A stretch of DNA of 44,172 bases from Desulfarculus sp. (GTDB taxonomy: Bacteria; Desulfobacterota; Desulfarculia; Desulfarculales; Desulfarculaceae). Under the pieces are notes generated by a model, which had not been told where the DNA came from, ran no database searches, and was given only the letters and a program-made list of their open reading frames with translations. The stretch lies in the NCBI GenBank assembly GCA_016218705.1, contig JACRDC010000102.1, positions 1 to 44,172 of the forward strand, in the 5' to 3' direction. The position numbers and the translations under genes are program-made. Positions 28,114 through 34,951 of this stretch are shown piece after piece. The first letter of the stretch is position 1; every line of letters starts with the position of its first letter.

Positions 28114-28797
28114 TTACTGCCTGGCCGCGGCCTCGATGTCGGCGGCGGATGCCACGTTGACCAAGAGCGCGTTGCAGTCCGGGCAGTACTGGGGATAGCG
28201 AATGGTGTGGTCCTGAAAGACCTTACCCGGCCGGAAGCGGTCCAGGAATTCCACGGCCTGGTCCCAGGCCTCCTGGGGCGTGTGGTCCACGGCCAGTATT
28301 TGCAGGCTCTCCAGCACCTGGCCGTCCGGGCGGTGGATGACCACGCTCATCACCTCGGGCTGCTCGCTGTTCTCGCCGAAGATGGTCACCGTGGCCAGGG
28401 CCGGCCCCTGGCCCAGCAAGAGGCCGGCCATGAGGTCCGAGTGGCGGCAGGCCGTGACCGGCGTGGCCGGGTCGTTGACGTACTCGCCCACGGCGTGGGC
28501 CAAATCGTGGCCGCCGGCCAGGCCGTGGCCTGACTTTTCGGCCCAGGGCAGGAACTGGCTGGCCTTGACCGGCACCGGCAGCACCTCCACGCCCATCTCG
28601 CGCAGAAAGTGCATGAGGTAGAAGCTGGTCTTGGCCTGCTGGCGGAACTCGTTCACCGACGAGCCCTGGCTGGGGCGCTGGTAGATCTGCCGCCAGTCCT
28701 CGTAGTCAAAGGCCGGCAGGCGCACGCTCTCATGCCCCTTGGCCACGAACTGCCGGGCCATGGCGCGGGCCTGCTCGACGATGGCGCTGATGTTCAC
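28114..28797 (-). CDS. Conserved protein of unknown function with C-terminal CxxC
   Basis: This is a 227-residue cytoplasmic protein that I do not recognise. Distinct features are the His/Gly-rich GHGLAGGHDLAHAVGEYV near the middle, a central mixed region (VTIFGENSEQPEVMSVVIHR), and a C-terminal QYCPDCNALLVN with a CxxC pair that could bind zinc or iron. The start was set to GTG at 28795-28797 because AAGGAG precedes it by five bases; the frame extends to 28827 without a ribosome-binding site. It is convergent with the esterase gene (53-base gap) and lies alone upstream of a structured intergenic region. Confidence 0.7.
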   Translation of the reverse strand: MNISAIVEQARAMARQFVAKGHESVRLPAFDYEDWRQIYQRPSQGSSVNEFRQQAKTSFYLMHFLREMGVEVLPVPVKASQFLPWAEKSGHGLAGGHDLAHAVGEYVNDPATPVTACRHSDLMAGLLLGQGPALATVTIFGENSEQPEVMSVVIHRPDGQVLESLQILAVDHTPQEAWDQAVEFLDRFRPGKVFQDHTIRYPQYCPDCNALLVNVASAADIEAAARQ

Positions 28798-28825
28798 GGG
28801 TACTCCTTGGCATGCAATTGAGGGC

Positions 28826-29023
28826 ATTGCATGGCGAAACAGAAAAATAGTCTGTAACCGCAGAGGTTAACCTCGCAAAATCCAATTTGGCCATGCAATG
28901 GCCGATGCGGGCCATGGACGGCCCGCCAATTTGCGAGCCTTCTTAGGCTAGCAAATTGGGAGGCTTGGCATAACCGCGTTTTTGCCAAGCCGACATCGCA
29001 CGGGGCAGGATGCCCCGTGCGAT
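28826..29023. other. Structured intergenic region with four inverted repeats
   Basis: ATTGCATGGC (28826-28835) pairs with GCCATGCAAT (28890-28899) and encloses the palindrome GAGGTTAACCTC (28863-28874). Three further stem-loops follow almost without gap: CCAATTTGC/GCAAATTGG (28926-28934/28951-28959), GGCTTGGCA/TGCCAAGCC (28962-28970/28983-28991), and a 13-bp perfect stem with a GGA loop (28995-29023). There is no reading frame of note. The gap lies between divergent genes (28797 minus, 29166 plus), so the structures could be attenuators, an unrecognised RNA or a mobile palindromic element. Confidence 0.6.
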
Positions 29024-29165
29024 GGTCTCCAATTGGGAACAGTTTGCGCCTGCCTGGGGCGTTGGTCAAGGCCCCAGCCGCTGGCCTTGCCTTCCGGGGC
29101 GCATGGGGGTATTGGTGGAGGTAGGGACACCATGAACGCCTCTCAGCGCCTTCCCGGAGGACCCC

Positions 29166-30695
29166 ATGCCCAGACCGGTGTTGTTGGCCGGGGCGTCGCT
29201 GACCCCCTTCGGCCGCACCCGCCACAAGCTCCTAGACCTGTTGGCCCAGGCCGCCCAGGGGGCGCTCAAGGAGGCCGGCCTCCAGGACGTGGACGCCTTG
29301 TACCTGGGGGTGATGAACGCCGAGGAGTTCACCGGCGAGGGCAACCTGGCCGTGGCCCTGGCCGACCGGCTGGGCCTGGGCGGGGCCGCCAGCTCCCGGG
29401 TGGAGACGGCCAGCAGCACCGGGGCCGGCGCCCTGGAGAGCGCCTTTTTTGCCGTGGCCAGCGGCTACCTCCAGAACGTGCTGGTGGTGGCCGGCGAGAA
29501 GATGACCGGGCTCTCCACCCGGGCCACCACCCGCATCCTGGCCGAGGTGATCGCCCCCAGCGAGCGGCGCTACGGGGCCTCCATGCCCGCCCTGGCGGCC
29601 CTCATCGCCCGGGCCTACGGCCGCGCCCACAATCTCGGCGAGGACCAACTCAGGGCCGTGCTGGGGGCCGTGGCGGTCAAGAACCACGCCCGTGGCGCCC
29701 TTAATCCCTTTGCCCAGTTCCAGAAGCCCATCAGCCTGGAGGAGCACCACGCCGCCCGGCCGGTGGCCGAGCCCCTGGGGCTATTCGACTGCGCGCCCAT
29801 CACCGACGGCGCCGCGGCGGTGGTCTTGAGCAGCCGTCGCGGCGGCGTGCGCCTGGCCGGCATGGGCCACGCCACCGACTCGGCGGCGGTGACCCGGCGC
29901 CAGGGGCTGACCAGCTTCAACTCCACACGCAAGGCCGCGGCCCAGGCCTACGCCATGGCCCAGGTCAACCCCCAGGAGGTGGACTTCGCCGAGGTGCACG
30001 ACGCCTTCACCATGTTCGAGGTGATCGGCAGCGAGGACCTGGGCTTCTTCCCGCCCGGGCAGGGCTGGCGGGCGGCCCTGGAGGGGCGCACCGGCCCCGA
30101 GGGCGAGCGGCCCATCAACCCCTCGGGCGGGCTCAAGGCCCGGGGGCACCCGGTGGGGGCCTCGGGCCTGGCCCAGGTGGTGGAGGCCTACTGGCTCTTG
30201 ACCGGCCAGGTTGACGCCGCCCGCCGTCTGCCCAGGGAGCCCAAGGTGGCGCTGACCCAGTCCATCGGCGGCCTGGGCAACAACAACCTGGTGACCATCC
30301 TGGTGCCGGCCTCGCGGCCCCTGCACCAGCCCGGCTCCTGGCAGACCAGCTTCAGCCTGCCGCTCATGCCCCTGGCCCCGCCCCGTCCCGAGCCGCCGCC
30401 GGGCGAGGTGACGGGCAAGGTGCTGGCCTGCACCCTGCTGCACACCCCGCCCGAGGGCTTCACGGCCCCCCTGGGCCTGGCCATGGTGCGCACCGCCCAG
30501 GGCTGGCTCACCCTGGCCCACACCGACCCCGAGCATCAGCCCGCCCTGGGCTCCACGGTGCTCCTGCGCCTGGAGGGCGGGCTGTTCCGGGCCGTCCAGG
30601 TGGGAGACCTGGCCGGCACCTGGCTGCGCACCCGCTCGGCCTGGCGGCGCCTGCCCACCAGCCTGCGCCTGTGGCGCCGGCGGCTAAGCCGCTAA
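29166..30695 (+). CDS. Thiolase-fold protein (SCP-x type) with fused C-terminal domain, nucleophile missing
   Basis: This is a 509-residue protein. Residues 1-385 follow the SCP2/archaeal thiolase pattern: GVMNAEEFTGEGNLAV, VVAGEKMTGLS, FAEVHDAFTMFE (active-site His) and NPSGGLKARGHPVGASG (catalytic His). At the nucleophile, where relatives have ACASG, this protein has A82-S83-S84-T85-G86, so the essential Cys is replaced by Ser. Residues 415-509 resemble a DUF35-type OB-fold that channels acyl-CoA in archaeal thiolase complexes. GGAGG at 29156-29160 fixes the ATG. It may be a non-catalytic acyl-CoA binder or catalyse different chemistry. It probably forms an operon with the next gene. Confidence 0.82.
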   Translation: MPRPVLLAGASLTPFGRTRHKLLDLLAQAAQGALKEAGLQDVDALYLGVMNAEEFTGEGNLAVALADRLGLGGAASSRVETASSTGAGALESAFFAVASGYLQNVLVVAGEKMTGLSTRATTRILAEVIAPSERRYGASMPALAALIARAYGRAHNLGEDQLRAVLGAVAVKNHARGALNPFAQFQKPISLEEHHAARPVAEPLGLFDCAPITDGAAAVVLSSRRGGVRLAGMGHATDSAAVTRRQGLTSFNSTRKAAAQAYAMAQVNPQEVDFAEVHDAFTMFEVIGSEDLGFFPPGQGWRAALEGRTGPEGERPINPSGGLKARGHPVGASGLAQVVEAYWLLTGQVDAARRLPREPKVALTQSIGGLGNNNLVTILVPASRPLHQPGSWQTSFSLPLMPLAPPRPEPPPGEVTGKVLACTLLHTPPEGFTAPLGLAMVRTAQGWLTLAHTDPEHQPALGSTVLLRLEGGLFRAVQVGDLAGTWLRTRSAWRRLPTSLRLWRRRLSR

Positions 30696-30820
30696 GATAC
30701 TGAGATCACGAGGCCTTGCCCTGGCGTTGCCTCCGAGGCCGGGGGAGGGTAACATACCGCCATTGTCCGCTGGCGGCCTTTCATGATCCCCTACCCCCAG
30801 GCCCTTTGGATAATCAGCCC

Positions 30821-31507
30821 ATGGCCCTGCCCGCGCCCTACCGCCCCCTGCCCGTGGTCCCCGGCCTGAGCAACTACGCCCGCAAGGTATGGTGGAGCCG
30901 CTTTGAGCTCATACCCGGGGTGACGCTCAAGACCACGGTGCGCCTGCGCCCCAGCCTGGCGGCGCGGGCCGAGGAGCCCCGCCACCTGCTGCCGGCCCTG
31001 TTGCAGGCCGCCAGCGCGGCCTTAAGCCTGCACCCGCGCCTGAATTTCTACACCTTCTGGGGCCGTCTGTACTGGGCCGGCGAGCCGGTGCGCGTGGGGG
31101 TGGTGGTGGAAAACCCCGATCAGACCTGCGGCATGGCCATCCTGAGCGACGCCCACCGCCTGAGCTGGCCGGAGTTGGACCTGGCCATGCGCAAGGCCCA
31201 CCACGCCCCGCCGCCCACGATTCTAGACCGCCTGCGCGAGGCCTGGCCGGTGCCCACCTATGTTCTGGAACGAATCAGCGGCTTCCACGCGCGCTCATAC
31301 ATGCGCCACAAGGCCCCGCTGTTCATCTCCATGCTGGCCCTGCCCGGCATCGGGGCGCCCAGCTTCGTGCCGGCCCACTCCATGGCCCTGCTGCCCGGCT
31401 GGCCCCAGGGCGGCCTGCTGCCCCTGGCCCTGTGCTTCAACCACCAACTGGCCAACGCCCGGCCCGTGGGACGGCTGCTCTTGACCATCAAGGACCTGCT
31501 GGAGTAG
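30821..31507 (+). CDS. CAT/2-oxoacid dehydrogenase E2-like acyltransferase relative
   Basis: This 228-residue protein resembles a stand-alone chloramphenicol-acetyltransferase/E2 catalytic fold. The clearest similarity is the end, LALCFNHQLANARPVGRLLLTIKDLLE, which parallels the E2 segment normally reading DHR-x-x-DG. Here His is kept but the DG is replaced by NA, so classical acyltransfer may be lost. PAHSMALLPGWPQGGLLPLALCF fits the preceding strands. No lipoyl or peripheral-subunit domain is present. The ATG at 30821 was chosen by family-like start; the ribosome-binding site is weak. Pairing with a thiolase-like gene lacking its Cys suggests a shared acyl-CoA-related role, which is inference. 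Confidence 0.6.
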   Translation: MALPAPYRPLPVVPGLSNYARKVWWSRFELIPGVTLKTTVRLRPSLAARAEEPRHLLPALLQAASAALSLHPRLNFYTFWGRLYWAGEPVRVGVVVENPDQTCGMAILSDAHRLSWPELDLAMRKAHHAPPPTILDRLREAWPVPTYVLERISGFHARSYMRHKAPLFISMLALPGIGAPSFVPAHSMALLPGWPQGGLLPLALCFNHQLANARPVGRLLLTIKDLLE

Positions 31508-31540
31508 GCCTCATACCAAGTTGCGATCAAACGAATCAGC

Positions 31541-31566
31541 AATCAAAGCCGTGGATGGCTTTGATT
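31541..31566. terminator. Bidirectional hairpin between convergent genes
   Basis: AATCAAAGCC and GGCTTTGATT form a perfect 10-bp stem with a GTGGAT loop between the ends of the acyltransferase-like gene and the hybrid kinase gene. The A/T-rich outer stem gives a partial U-tract in both directions, suiting a shared terminator. Confidence 0.65.
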
Positions 31567-31612
31567 GCATATTGGAATAAGATAGCGATTTTCGTGGCGG
31601 GAGAAGGTTTGC

Positions 31613-34600
31613 TCAGGGAGCCGTTGGGCAAGCGCCGTCCAGGATGGCGCGCGCCTGGGCCAGAAGCTCGTGGAAGCGGTAGGGCTTGCCGATCAGCCCG
31701 GCGGCGCCCAACTCGGTGATCTGGCGGGTGGTGGCCTCGTCGGCGTAGCCGGTGGCCACCAGCACCTTGACCTGGGGCTGGGTGGCCACGAGGGTTTGCA
31801 GGCACTTGAGCCCGCCCATGCCCGGCATGCTCAGGTCCAGTATAACCAGGCCGATGTCCTGGGGCGAGCCCAGGTAGATGTCCAGGGCCTGTTCGCCGCT
31901 GGCGGCGGTGAGCACGCCGTAGCCGCATTCCTGCAGGGCCTGGCGGCAGGTATCCAGGATGGCCGCCTCGTCGTCCACCACCAGGATGGTCTCGCTGCCC
32001 GTGGCGGCCTTGGCCGGGGGGCATGGCTCCAGGTTTTCCGCGATGGCCGGGGCCGGGGCCACGGGCAGGTAGATGGTGAAGGTGGCGCCCCGCTGGGGGC
32101 GGCTGTGGCAGACGATGCGCCCGCCGTAGTTGGTCACGATGCCGTAGACCGTGCTTAGCCCCAGGCCGGTGCCCTGGCCCCGGGGCTTGGTGGTGAAGAA
32201 GGGCTCGAAGATGTGCGAGACGGTTTCCTCATCCATGCCCACGCCGGTGTCGCTGACCGTCAGGCGCACGTAGTCACCCGGCGCCAGGCCGGACAGGGCG
32301 CGCGCCTCCTGCTCTCCCAGGGTCAGGTTGCGGGTGCTGAAGGTCAGCTCCCCGCCCTGGGGCATGGCCTGGCCGGCGTTGGTGGACAGGTTCAAGAGCA
32401 CCTGCTCCACCTGGGTGGAGTCGGCGCTGATGGGCCGGAGGTCCGGGGCCAGGCCGGTGACGATCTTAATCATGCGCGGCAGGGTGTGCTCCAGTATCTT
32501 GACCGTGCGCGTCACCTCCTGGTTGAGGTCCACCCGCTCCAGGTGGGTCTGGCCCTTGCGGGCCAGAGTCATCAAGTGCCGGATCATGCCCGTGGCGCGG
32601 GCGATGTACTGCTCCACGTGCTCCAGGCGCTCGCGGCCCAGGGGGCCCAGGTCCTTCTCGGCCAGCATCAATTGGGTGTAGCCCGATATGGCCTGTAGCA
32701 CGTTGTTGAAGTCGTGGGCGATGCCGCCGGCCAGCACCCCCAGGGCCTCGATCTTCTGCGACTGGAAGAGCTGCTCCTGCAGGCGGCGCAGTTGCCGCTC
32801 GGCCATGATGCGCTCCGTGACGTCGCGCCCCACCCCGCTGATGTAGGCCGGGCCGTCGGGTGAGGTGACCAGGGAGCTGTGGTACTCGATGTAGCGGCGG
32901 CTGCCGTCCTTGGCGAAGTACAGGGAAAGGCCGAAGTGGTGCCCCTCTTGACGCAGCTTGCCCAGGTACTCCTGGAGGTAGGCCTCCCTGAATTCGGGTT
33001 TCATGAAGTCCGAGGCCTTGCGGCCCAAAAGTTCCGGTGAGGTGTAGCCGAAGGTCTTGGCCATGGCGGGGTTGACGCTCAGGAAGCGGCCTTCCAGGTC
33101 CTGGGTGTAGATCAGGTCGCTCATGCCGTCGAAGAGCTGGCGGTAGCGGCGCTCGCTCTCCTTGAGGGCGCGCTCGGCCTCCAGGCGCTCGGTGACGTCC
33201 TCGTATATGACCACCTGCCGGCCCGAGGCGATGGTCACCGGCCTGAACAGGATGGTCTTCTGGCTTGAGTCCTTGCACCTGACCTGGTAGGCGCGGGGCC
33301 GGGCCTCGCCGGCCGGGTAGGCACGCAGGTCCTCCCGCCAGTCCCGCTTGGCCTGCCGCCGCTTTTCGGGGTCGGGATAAACCAGTTGGAACCAGGCCTC
33401 GCCGTCGGGCACCTCCTCCAGGGTGTAGCCGAACATCCTGACAAAGGCCGGGTTTACGTACTCGTAGCGTCCCTGGCTATCCAGGAGGCTGATGCCCAGG
33501 GGCGATTCCTCGCTGATGACCCGGAAGCGCTCCTCCGACTCCTTGAGGGCCTCCTCGGCCTTTTTGCGCTGGGTGATGTCCTTGGAGATGCAGATGACCG
33601 TGACCACCCGGCCCTCTTGGTCCTTGACCGGCTTGACCGAGGTGACGAAGTACAAATCCTCCATCGGCTGGGGCACCCGCACCTCGATGACCCGGGTCTG
33701 GCCGCTGGCGAAGACCGCCTTGACCGCGGCGTAGCGCTTGTCGGCCTCGTCCTGGGGGAAGATGTCCCAAATGCGCTTGCCGATGATCTCCTCGGGCGCC
33801 TTGCCGAAGGGCGTGGCGAAGGCCTTGTTGACGTAGGAGTAGGTGCCGCCGGGCAAAAAGCTGAAGATGGGGTCCGTGGACTCCTCCAGCACCAGGCGGT
33901 GCTTGTCCTCGCTCTTGCGCAGGGCCTCCTCGGCCAGCTTGCGGTCGGTCACGTCCATGGCCGCGCCGTCCCAGAGAACCGAGCCGTCATCCAGGCGGCG
34001 GGGGGTTGCGGCCAGGCTGAACCAGCGCAGAAGGCCGCTGGGCAGGCGCGCCTGCGTCTCCATGCTAAATACCGACATCTCGGCCAGGGATTGCTCCTCC
34101 CTGGCCCGCATCTCGGCGCGCTGCTCGGGCAGTATCTGGCTGTAGAGCCGGTTGGCGTCGGCCAGCACCTCCTGGGCCGGCACCTCGCTGAGCCGCTCCA
34201 CGCTGCCGCTGACATAGGTGAAGCGCCGGCTGCCGTCCGGGTGGGCCACCACCTGGTAGAAGATGGCGTTGGGCAGATTGTCGCCCAACAGGCGCAGGCG
34301 GCGTTGGTTTTCGCGCAGTTCCTCCTCGGCCTGCTTGCGCTGGGATATGTCGCGGCACACCGACAGGATCACCGGCTGGCCGGCGCTCTCCACCACGGTG
34401 GCGTTGATCTCCACGGGCAGCTCGCCGCCGCCGGCTGGCAGGTAGGTGACCTCCAGGTTGCGCACCTGGCCCCGGGCCAGGCATTTTTCCACCTCGGACT
34501 GGTTGCGCGCCTGGTCCCGGGGGTGGGTCCACTCCACCACCGGGCGCCCGTGTATCTCCTCCAGGGAGCCCCGGCCGGTCATGCGCACGTATGCCTGGTT

Positions 34601-34951
34601 GGCGTCCAGTACCCGGCCGGCCTGGTCCAGGATCACGAAACCGGTGTCGGTGGTCTCGACCAAGGCCCGGTACTTGGCCTCGCTCTCGGCCAGGGCGGCG
34701 GTGCGGCGCCGCATAAGCCGGCGCAGTTGCAGGTTCCATATCCAGATCAACAGGCTAAGGAGCATCAGCGCGCCGGCCACCACCAGCAGGTGGGGACGGT
34801 ACTGGGCCACCAGGGAGGACAAGGCCGGGAACCAGTATTGGGGCTCGGCGGCGGTATCCTGGGCCAGGGCCGGCCAGGCCCAGCCCAAGGCCCCCAGGGC
34901 CAGGATTGCCACCCAGGAACAGGCCAGCCAGTGTTTTAACCGTAAAATCAC
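31613..34951 (-). CDS. Membrane hybrid histidine kinase with five PAS domains
   Basis: This is a 1112-residue sensor. Two hydrophobic stretches (about 8-30 and 53-73) bracket a short periplasmic segment. Five PAS modules follow at roughly 90-210, 215-345, 350-470, 475-600 and 605-730, each ending in a PAC-like DITQRK/DVTER motif. The HisKA box [13 protein letters not shown] holds the phospho-accepting His. The ATPase domain shows [10 protein letters not shown] (N box), DTGVGMDEE (G1) and [11 protein letters not shown] (G2). A C-terminal receiver ([23 protein letters not shown]) completes a hybrid kinase. The start is GTG at 34949-34951 with weak Shine-Dalgarno pairing. No output regulator lies next to it. 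The signal is unknown; the number of PAS domains suggests redox or small-ligand integration. Confidence 0.94.

Follow-up and report, generated by a model that had tools for sequence, protein, structure and literature searches.

A thiolase-like protein of Desulfarculus sp. from a clade without the nucleophilic cysteine: candidate non-covalent acyl-CoA chemistry in archaea and bacteria

Results and discussion

We analysed a 44,172-nucleotide stretch of DNA from Desulfarculus sp. (contig C72 of the host genome, GenBank JACRDC010000102.1 of assembly GCA_016218705.1; hereafter the window), in which a gene for a thiolase-like protein is followed by one for a stand-alone CAT/E2-like protein (Table 1). 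The thiolase-like protein lacks the nucleophilic cysteine of thiolases and has an OB domain fused to its C-terminus. We propose, with a probability of roughly 45%, that it binds acyl-coenzyme A (acyl-CoA) and performs non-covalent enolate chemistry with the assistance of the OB domain, the Cys having been lost once in an archaeal-type clade partnered by DUF35 proteins.

Active site and fold of the thiolase-like protein

Pfam assigns the protein to Thiolase_C_1 (1.5e-40) and Thiolase_N (3.7e-19), and its best NCBIfam matches (“thiolase domain-containing protein”, “acetyl-CoA acetyltransferase”) all remain below the curated cut-offs. A structural model (predicted local distance difference test score, pLDDT, 84.0; 18 sequences) is closest in fold to the archaeal thiolases 6ESQ (Z 48.1, root-mean-square deviation (rmsd) 1.6 over 374 residues) and 7YVY (Z 47.9), followed by ST0096 (4YZO; Z 46.7, rmsd 1.5 over 340 residues). 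The open reading frame (ORF) and its alignment agree with the original prediction, made from the sequence, that Ser83 (VETASSTGA) stands at the position of the Cys in Cys-bearing relatives and that both His motifs are retained, H278 in HDAF and H328 in GHP. Compared with Cys-dependent thiolases, the oxyanion-hole histidines are thus present, and both the nucleophilic and the second Cys are absent: HDCF has become HDAF, in all 29 bacterial family rows, and the CxG region reads QSIGGLGNNN. As described in PMC3406046, the Cys of thiolases carries the acyl group, and a His/His or Asn/His pair stabilises the enolate. Judged from its residues, thiolysis via an acyl-Cys enzyme is predicted not to be possible in the window protein.

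The original prediction had named a Cys from elsewhere filling the site as a finding that would overturn it. The protein contains C209 and C422 and no other cysteines, and C209, the sole conserved one, is equally common in Cys-bearing relatives (32/35), so that it appears to be no special substitute; a replacement Cys is therefore not supported at the sequence level. The gene is under purifying selection, with ratios of nonsynonymous to synonymous substitutions (dN/dS), obtained by simple counting in GC-rich DNA, of 0.26 against the homologue L039 and 0.44 against L040 and L042.

The bacterial family

When 395 genomes of the window’s phylum were searched with a profile, 22 matches scored 678 bits or more, after which scores dropped to 353 bits, and this drop marks the family as discrete. 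An additional match of 337 bits at a contig end covers residues 1–198 only and may be a cut-off member. Ser83 was present in 18/18 rows of a first family alignment and in 28 of 29 rows of the bacterial family set, from which the duplicate loci L040, L042, L044 and L045 and the frameshifted L088 were left out, and in which the identical rows L048 and L143 were both kept. A sequencing error or lone mutation is thereby ruled out as the origin of Ser83. H278 occurs in 28/29 and H328 in 29/29 of these rows.

The only orthologue with a Cys, the finding that the original prediction would have read as a sequence error, is nested within the Ser clade. This protein (L157:8383-9930, genome G331) has 516 amino acids (aa), includes the OB part and reads VETACSTGA with the codon TGT; two genes upstream of it is a gene with a carboxyltransferase domain. 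In the frameshifted locus L088 (G013:C54), the thiolase-like and CAT-like genes are each split over two frames, by assembly error or decay.

A clade shared with archaea

Searches with the family profile or a Halorubrum member as query brought up archaeal relatives. The tree, for which the motif columns were masked, has a branch with a Shimodaira–Hasegawa-like approximate likelihood ratio (SH-aLRT) support of 99 that separates 29 bacterial and 20 archaeal rows (49 in total) from 32 Cys-bearing and four alphaproteobacterial rows (L056, L062, L064, L067, L069, L070 and L133, partial or near-duplicate, were left out). The resulting Cys-less clade spans archaea and some bacteria, mostly anaerobic. 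Position 83 was counted across 48 of its rows (L056, L062 and L133 were included; L053, L064 and the alphaproteobacterial L065-L071 were not): the bacteria have Ser in 28 and Cys in one, and the 19 archaeal rows, all with both histidines, have Ser in 13, Pro in three, Thr in two and Ala in one. All 35 other relatives carry Cys here. Conservation in the clade is otherwise high, with H278 in 47/48 rows, H328, N318 and D214 in 48/48 each, and the glycines of the GG and GHP motifs in 47–48/48.

At minimum, three changes of the Cys state are needed, which can be read as a putative loss in the clade, a regain in L157 and a separate alphaproteobacterial loss. On this tree and within this sampling, the nucleophilic Cys was lost once, at the base of the clade. 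We found no paper on the Cys-less clade as such in the open-licence PubMed Central (PMC) literature.

Several further features of these sequences were recorded. The thiolase Cys is also absent (NASASG) in the alphaproteobacterial group L065-L071 (Pseudooceanicola and relatives), which lies on another branch. Residue 365 is a Cys in 12/19 archaeal Cys-less rows, in none of the 29 bacterial and in none of the 35 Cys-bearing rows. Archaeal loci carry genes for CoA-transferase III, FAA hydrolase, AllG, hydantoinase and amidohydrolases, none of them constant. In Halorubrum salipaludis (L054:4660-8411), the Cys-less gene stands in a row with CoA-transferase III, DUF35 and FAA hydrolase genes; in L192 and L195 (archaeal genomes G789 and G809), it lies near genes for AllG, an oxamate carbamoyltransferase subunit, and CoA-ligase-type genes, a context hinting at nitrogen-compound breakdown.

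The fused OB domain and DUF35

The fused OB-like domain of the original prediction is present as a small all-beta domain in the C-terminal part of the model (residues ~412–479, strands at ~414–478). A profile of 13 fused domains aligned by hhalign with ten separate archaeal DUF35 proteins at a probability of 98.1 (E 1.3e-13). On the window sequence itself, PF01796 scores 14.1–17.1 bits, below its cut-off of 27.1; in the family member L050 it passes with 30.3 bits. The fused part has no rubredoxin-like zinc ribbon, C422 being its only Cys.

In archaea, the gene immediately downstream of the Cys-less one encodes a separate DUF35 protein, in most cases with a zinc ribbon, at 13 of the 17 loci where the thiolase was found; the remaining four may reflect failures of the simple gene picker, and no thiolase was seen in L199. 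Some matches of the fused profile cross the archaeal stop codon into the DUF35 gene (G760 to position 465, G766 to 473). Because of this continuity and the DUF35 homology, the bacterial state is a fusion of the DUF35 OB part, without zinc ribbon, to the C-terminus. That members of the thiolase superfamily can be fused to relatives of DUF35 is, in general terms, already described in PMC2954200.

Comparison with known thiolase-fold proteins

ST0096 of Sulfolobus tokodaii (PDB 4YZO) groups with the clade in the tree and resembles the window protein in its fold, in the Ser at the nucleophile position and in the HD and GHP motifs. It differs in its length of 373 residues, in the absence of a fused OB domain and in reading HDMA instead of HDAF. 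The open-licence PMC literature searched yielded no function for ST0096, which PMC6392133 names solely for its fold. The two best fold matches, 6ESQ (M. thermolithotrophicus) and 7YVY (P. furiosus), are archaeal thiolases of DUF35 complexes. Both keep the nucleophilic Cys and a separate DUF35 protein (described for 6ESQ in PMC6392133), whereas the window protein lacks the Cys and carries the OB part in fused form.

Retro-aldolases with a thiolase fold and a DUF35 partner exist in Ltp2 and Sal, with a catalytic Tyr in YDHF or YDCY according to PMC12329534. These steroid aldolases (6OK1, Z 40.2; 9MYR, Z 38.4) likewise lack the classical thiolase nucleophile, and the counterpart of their DUF35 partner is found in the window protein in cis, as the OB part only. 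Membership in the Ltp2/Sal group is ruled out by the missing Tyr motif. Despite this, the working principle may be alike.

Proposed chemistry and alternatives

Because the clade dropped the Cys that carries the acyl group and kept the histidines that stabilise the enolate, non-covalent enolate chemistry fits its pattern of conservation. Acyl-CoA would be bound and the enolate then stabilised by the retained histidines without a covalent acyl-enzyme, and candidate reactions would be decarboxylation or an aldolase- or lyase-type making or breaking of C–C bonds. The fused OB domain would assist by holding the CoA ester or shaping the pocket, much as DUF35 shapes the cleft of Sal. A plain thiolase role is needless, as the host genome, with 11 PF00108 matches over the cut-off including the thiolase-like gene, encodes six other thiolases above 200 bits. 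With the classical Cys acyl-enzyme route closed, “binding or repurposed chemistry”, as the original prediction put it, is the right class for the thiolase-like protein.

The main rival, which we regard as unlikely, is a catalytically inactive pseudoenzyme that binds acyl-CoA or scaffolds a partner, for instance another thiolase-fold subunit. A model for it is MsTLP1 of M. smegmatis (4EGV), which PMC3406046 describes as a thiolase fold with a fused C-terminal beta-barrel and a lost nucleophilic Cys. The match to 4EGV (Z 36.1, 18% identity) extends to residue 479, and among the 50 matches listed this is the sole chain aligning past model residue 386. PhlA, an inactive fold relative within the PhlABC complex (PMC6392133, PMC2954200), offers a further parallel. 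The likeness to TLP1 is partial, however: according to PMC3406046, MsTLP1 is a monomer and has lost the GHP, CxS and CxG fingerprints, while the window protein keeps GHP. The near-complete retention of H278, H328, N318, D214 and the GG and GHP glycines in the clade also speaks against a protein without catalysis. Less probable still is that Ser83 is a true nucleophile, forming an acyl-Ser enzyme that transfers or hydrolyses the acyl group. Ser predominates in both the bacterial and the archaeal rows, with both histidines at hand, and the ketosynthase-like DpsC provides a precedent for Ser. Ser is probably no new nucleophile, though, because Pro, Ala or Thr fill the position in 6/19 archaeal sisters with the same histidines, so that a general nucleophilic role in the clade appears unlikely. 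In addition, the DUF35-partnered thiolase-fold enzyme PhlC loses its activity on exchange of Cys for Ser, as reported in PMC6392133.

Several points weigh against the enolate proposal. The residue in place of the Ltp2/Sal Tyr (YDxF/Y) is a His (HDAF), and TLP1 is reported to be without thiolase activity (PMC3406046). The tree was built by a quick method without bootstrapping, and several of its long branches were flagged. The archaeal rows represent the top-scoring loci of each search, not a census; of 20 archaeal loci kept from one search, 11 have the Cys and group among the Cys-bearing rows, and under a strict cut-off in one search just 8/148 genomes matched. A tree with L157 forced out of the Cys-less group is worse by 110 log-likelihood units, with an approximately unbiased test p value (p-AU) of 7.7e-5 that is weakened because this one-clade test was set after the tree had been seen. 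The fixation of Ser in the bacterial branch may mean that this residue matters, and it may have a role in that branch alone. One bacterial member (L155:2442-3926, genome G141) has lost H278 (DDAF) and carries the motif VSPTG; this gene may be decaying. Finally, the neighbours of the thiolase-like gene vary between families and indicate no single pathway.

Somewhat more tentatively than for the window protein, the proposal of non-covalent enolate chemistry may be extended to the whole clade. The clade would have given up covalent catalysis once, the nucleophile position would then have drifted (Ser, Thr, Ala or Pro) with the His pair kept, and a fused or separate DUF35 OB domain would serve a new non-covalent acyl-CoA C–C reaction, unlike those of thiolases and of the Tyr-dependent Ltp2/Sal. 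In one lineage the Cys would have come back, and acyl-enzyme chemistry may have returned with it.

The CAT/E2-like protein

The second gene probably starts at the ATG at 30821, because relatives align only from about there, which gives a protein of 228 aa. The original prediction had described it as an E2/CAT fold with NHQLANA in place of the catalytic DHR-x-x-DG. The motif reads as stated, and the fold is supported by a model whose confidence is modest (pLDDT 69.7): Foldseek gave a best E of 6.8e-9 with a template modelling (TM) score of only ~0.5, and VIA-align a Z of 16.0 over 177 residues at an rmsd of 3.2. The change in the catalytic site is milder than had been claimed: the protein retains the catalytic His, and true E2s, too, can have Asn at the Asp position. 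H208, Q209, N212 and A213, as well as R214 and P215, are present in 10/10 family rows and N207 in 9/10 (S-Q in one row), which makes the altered motif a family trait.

The closest known structures are the E2 catalytic domains 7B9K (Z 16.0) and 1DPB (Z 15.2), which share the catalytic-type His. They differ from the second gene product, in which NHQ and NA replace DHR and DG, and which at its length has no room for lipoyl or E3-binding domains. PF00198 reaches 13.2 bits on it, against a cut-off of 23. In E. coli E2p, as described in PMC8421416, the His is catalytic and flanked by a D-R pair, and S551 stabilises the intermediate; according to the same source, the Asp of DG is an Asn in A. vinelandii E2p. 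Asn (FDHRAING) is likewise present in a true E2 with lipoyl, E3-binding and catalytic domains that genome G001 encodes. Because Asn occurs in true E2s, only the flanking pair and the Gly-to-Ala change are unusual.

A catalytically dead CAT/E2-like protein is rather doubtful on this evidence. The flanking D-R pair described in PMC8421416 has become N-Q in 9/10 rows and the Gly of DG has become Ala in all ten, which would fit a loss of activity, but H208 and S170 persist in 10/10 rows, and the Asn has its counterparts in A. vinelandii E2p (PMC8421416) and the G001 E2. S170 is the putative second catalytic residue by strand order only; a sequence-only alignment of the family to an E2 misplaced the middle part. 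By its sequence features, the protein may be an active stand-alone acyltransferase. A part in a 2-oxoacid dehydrogenase complex was ruled out: PF00198 has no match in the host genome (G000), a search whose control was positive in 10/14 genomes, and thus there is no sign of a classical E2. Three CAT-like proteins tried against PHROGs gave no match. With dN/dS of 0.46–0.56, the gene is under moderate constraint only. The family occurs in 14/63 genomes of the class, all within the window’s own taxonomic family, and five more genomes have weak matches only, one of them with stops.

Genomic neighbourhood

The host genome comprises 4.2 Mb on 126 contigs and is 99% complete. In the window, an orphan gene on the opposite strand precedes the thiolase-like and CAT/E2-like genes, and a PAS-domain hybrid sensor kinase gene (31613-34951, minus strand) follows, convergent with the CAT/E2-like gene. 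The nearest relatives are from metagenome-assembled genomes of Desulfarculus sp. and of a deltaproteobacterium (74–96% identity), followed by Desulfocarbo and Dethiosulfatarculus (68–69%); those with names are Desulfarculaceae and other Deltaproteobacteria. Scans of positions 28700-31700 provided no evidence of promoters (0 found, 0.2 expected) or of terminators (two terminator-like sites found, 1.5 expected).

Table 1 Features of the window discussed in the text
Feature	Coordinates	Strand	Basis
Orphan gene, in this family usually adjacent to and divergent from the CAT-like gene	28114..28827	-	Neighbourhoods, distribution; nothing convincing in Pfam or PDB sequences
Thiolase-like protein, 509 aa, fused C-terminal OB domain	29166..30695	+	ORF; Pfam Thiolase_C_1, Thiolase_N; model, fold match
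Ser83 codon AGC, thiolase nucleophile position	29412..29414	+	Ser in 28/29 family rows, Cys in 35/35 Cys-bearing relatives
His278 codon (HDAF motif)	29997..29999	+	His in 47/48 Cys-less-clade rows
His328 codon (GHP motif)	30147..30149	+	His in 48/48 Cys-less-clade rows
Fused OB domain, residues ~412-479, without zinc ribbon	30399..30602	+	Model strands; hhalign 98.1% vs archaeal DUF35
CAT/E2-fold stand-alone protein, 228 aa	30821..31507	+	Start from relatives; fold search
NHQLANA motif, residues 207-213, catalytic-type His208	31439..31459	+	10-row family alignment

That the two genes are a pair of altered acyl-CoA enzymes, as originally suggested, was not borne out across genomes. They adjoin in five of the six genomes of the genus only (G000, G013, G014, G015, G017), where the thiolase-like gene stands between the orphan and the CAT-like gene. 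In the sixth (G016), all three lie on separate contigs, and thus the orphan is not always the CAT-like gene’s neighbour. The thiolase-like and CAT-like genes are ~117 kb apart in G004 and 170 kb apart in G008, and lie on different contigs in G002, G006, G007, G009 and G016; each also occurs alone, the CAT-like gene in G001 and the thiolase-like gene in G012. In seven genomes (G001, G002, G004, G006, G007, G008, G009), the CAT-like gene is divergent from an orphan homologue with at most one gene in between. Because the orphan, and not the thiolase, is the usual neighbour of the CAT-like gene and the thiolase neighbours vary, the adjacency in the window is a local arrangement. A conserved operon of the thiolase-like and CAT-like genes was ruled out by the same neighbourhoods. 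A two-enzyme unit sharing an acyl-CoA substrate is accordingly very improbable: the shared strand, the 125 bases between the frames and the common gene order within the genus would suit it, but the separation of the genes in seven genomes, their solitary occurrence and the seven CAT-like genes that keep the orphan neighbour without the thiolase all contradict it.

The orphan gene encodes 237 aa with a CPDC motif near the end. Of the 63 genomes of the class, 19 have it, and six of these (G005, G011, G012, G019, G060, G061) lack the CAT-like gene; the CAT-like gene lacks the orphan only in G003, a genome that is 71% complete. Around the thiolase-like gene, GntR regulators flank deep bacterial members in L049 and L154, and dipeptide-type ATP-binding cassette (ABC) transporter genes occur in L049, L050, L154 and L156; for L156 and for parts of L049 and L050, these assignments were made only by clustering or by inspecting the sequence. 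Enoyl-CoA hydratases lie near some members of one family (L149, L151, L152).

Conclusions

The CAT/E2-like neighbour is no E2 remnant and is not obviously dead. The proteins of the Cys-less clade are easily mistaken for thiolases, and thiolysis as known is not open to them. If they do perform non-covalent enolate chemistry, a set of misnamed archaeal and bacterial genes would acquire a function open to testing. What a thiolase fold does without its nucleophile can be asked with a series of variants that nature provides, namely the nested Cys member and those with Pro, Ala or Thr, and with ST0096 a solved structure from the clade already exists.

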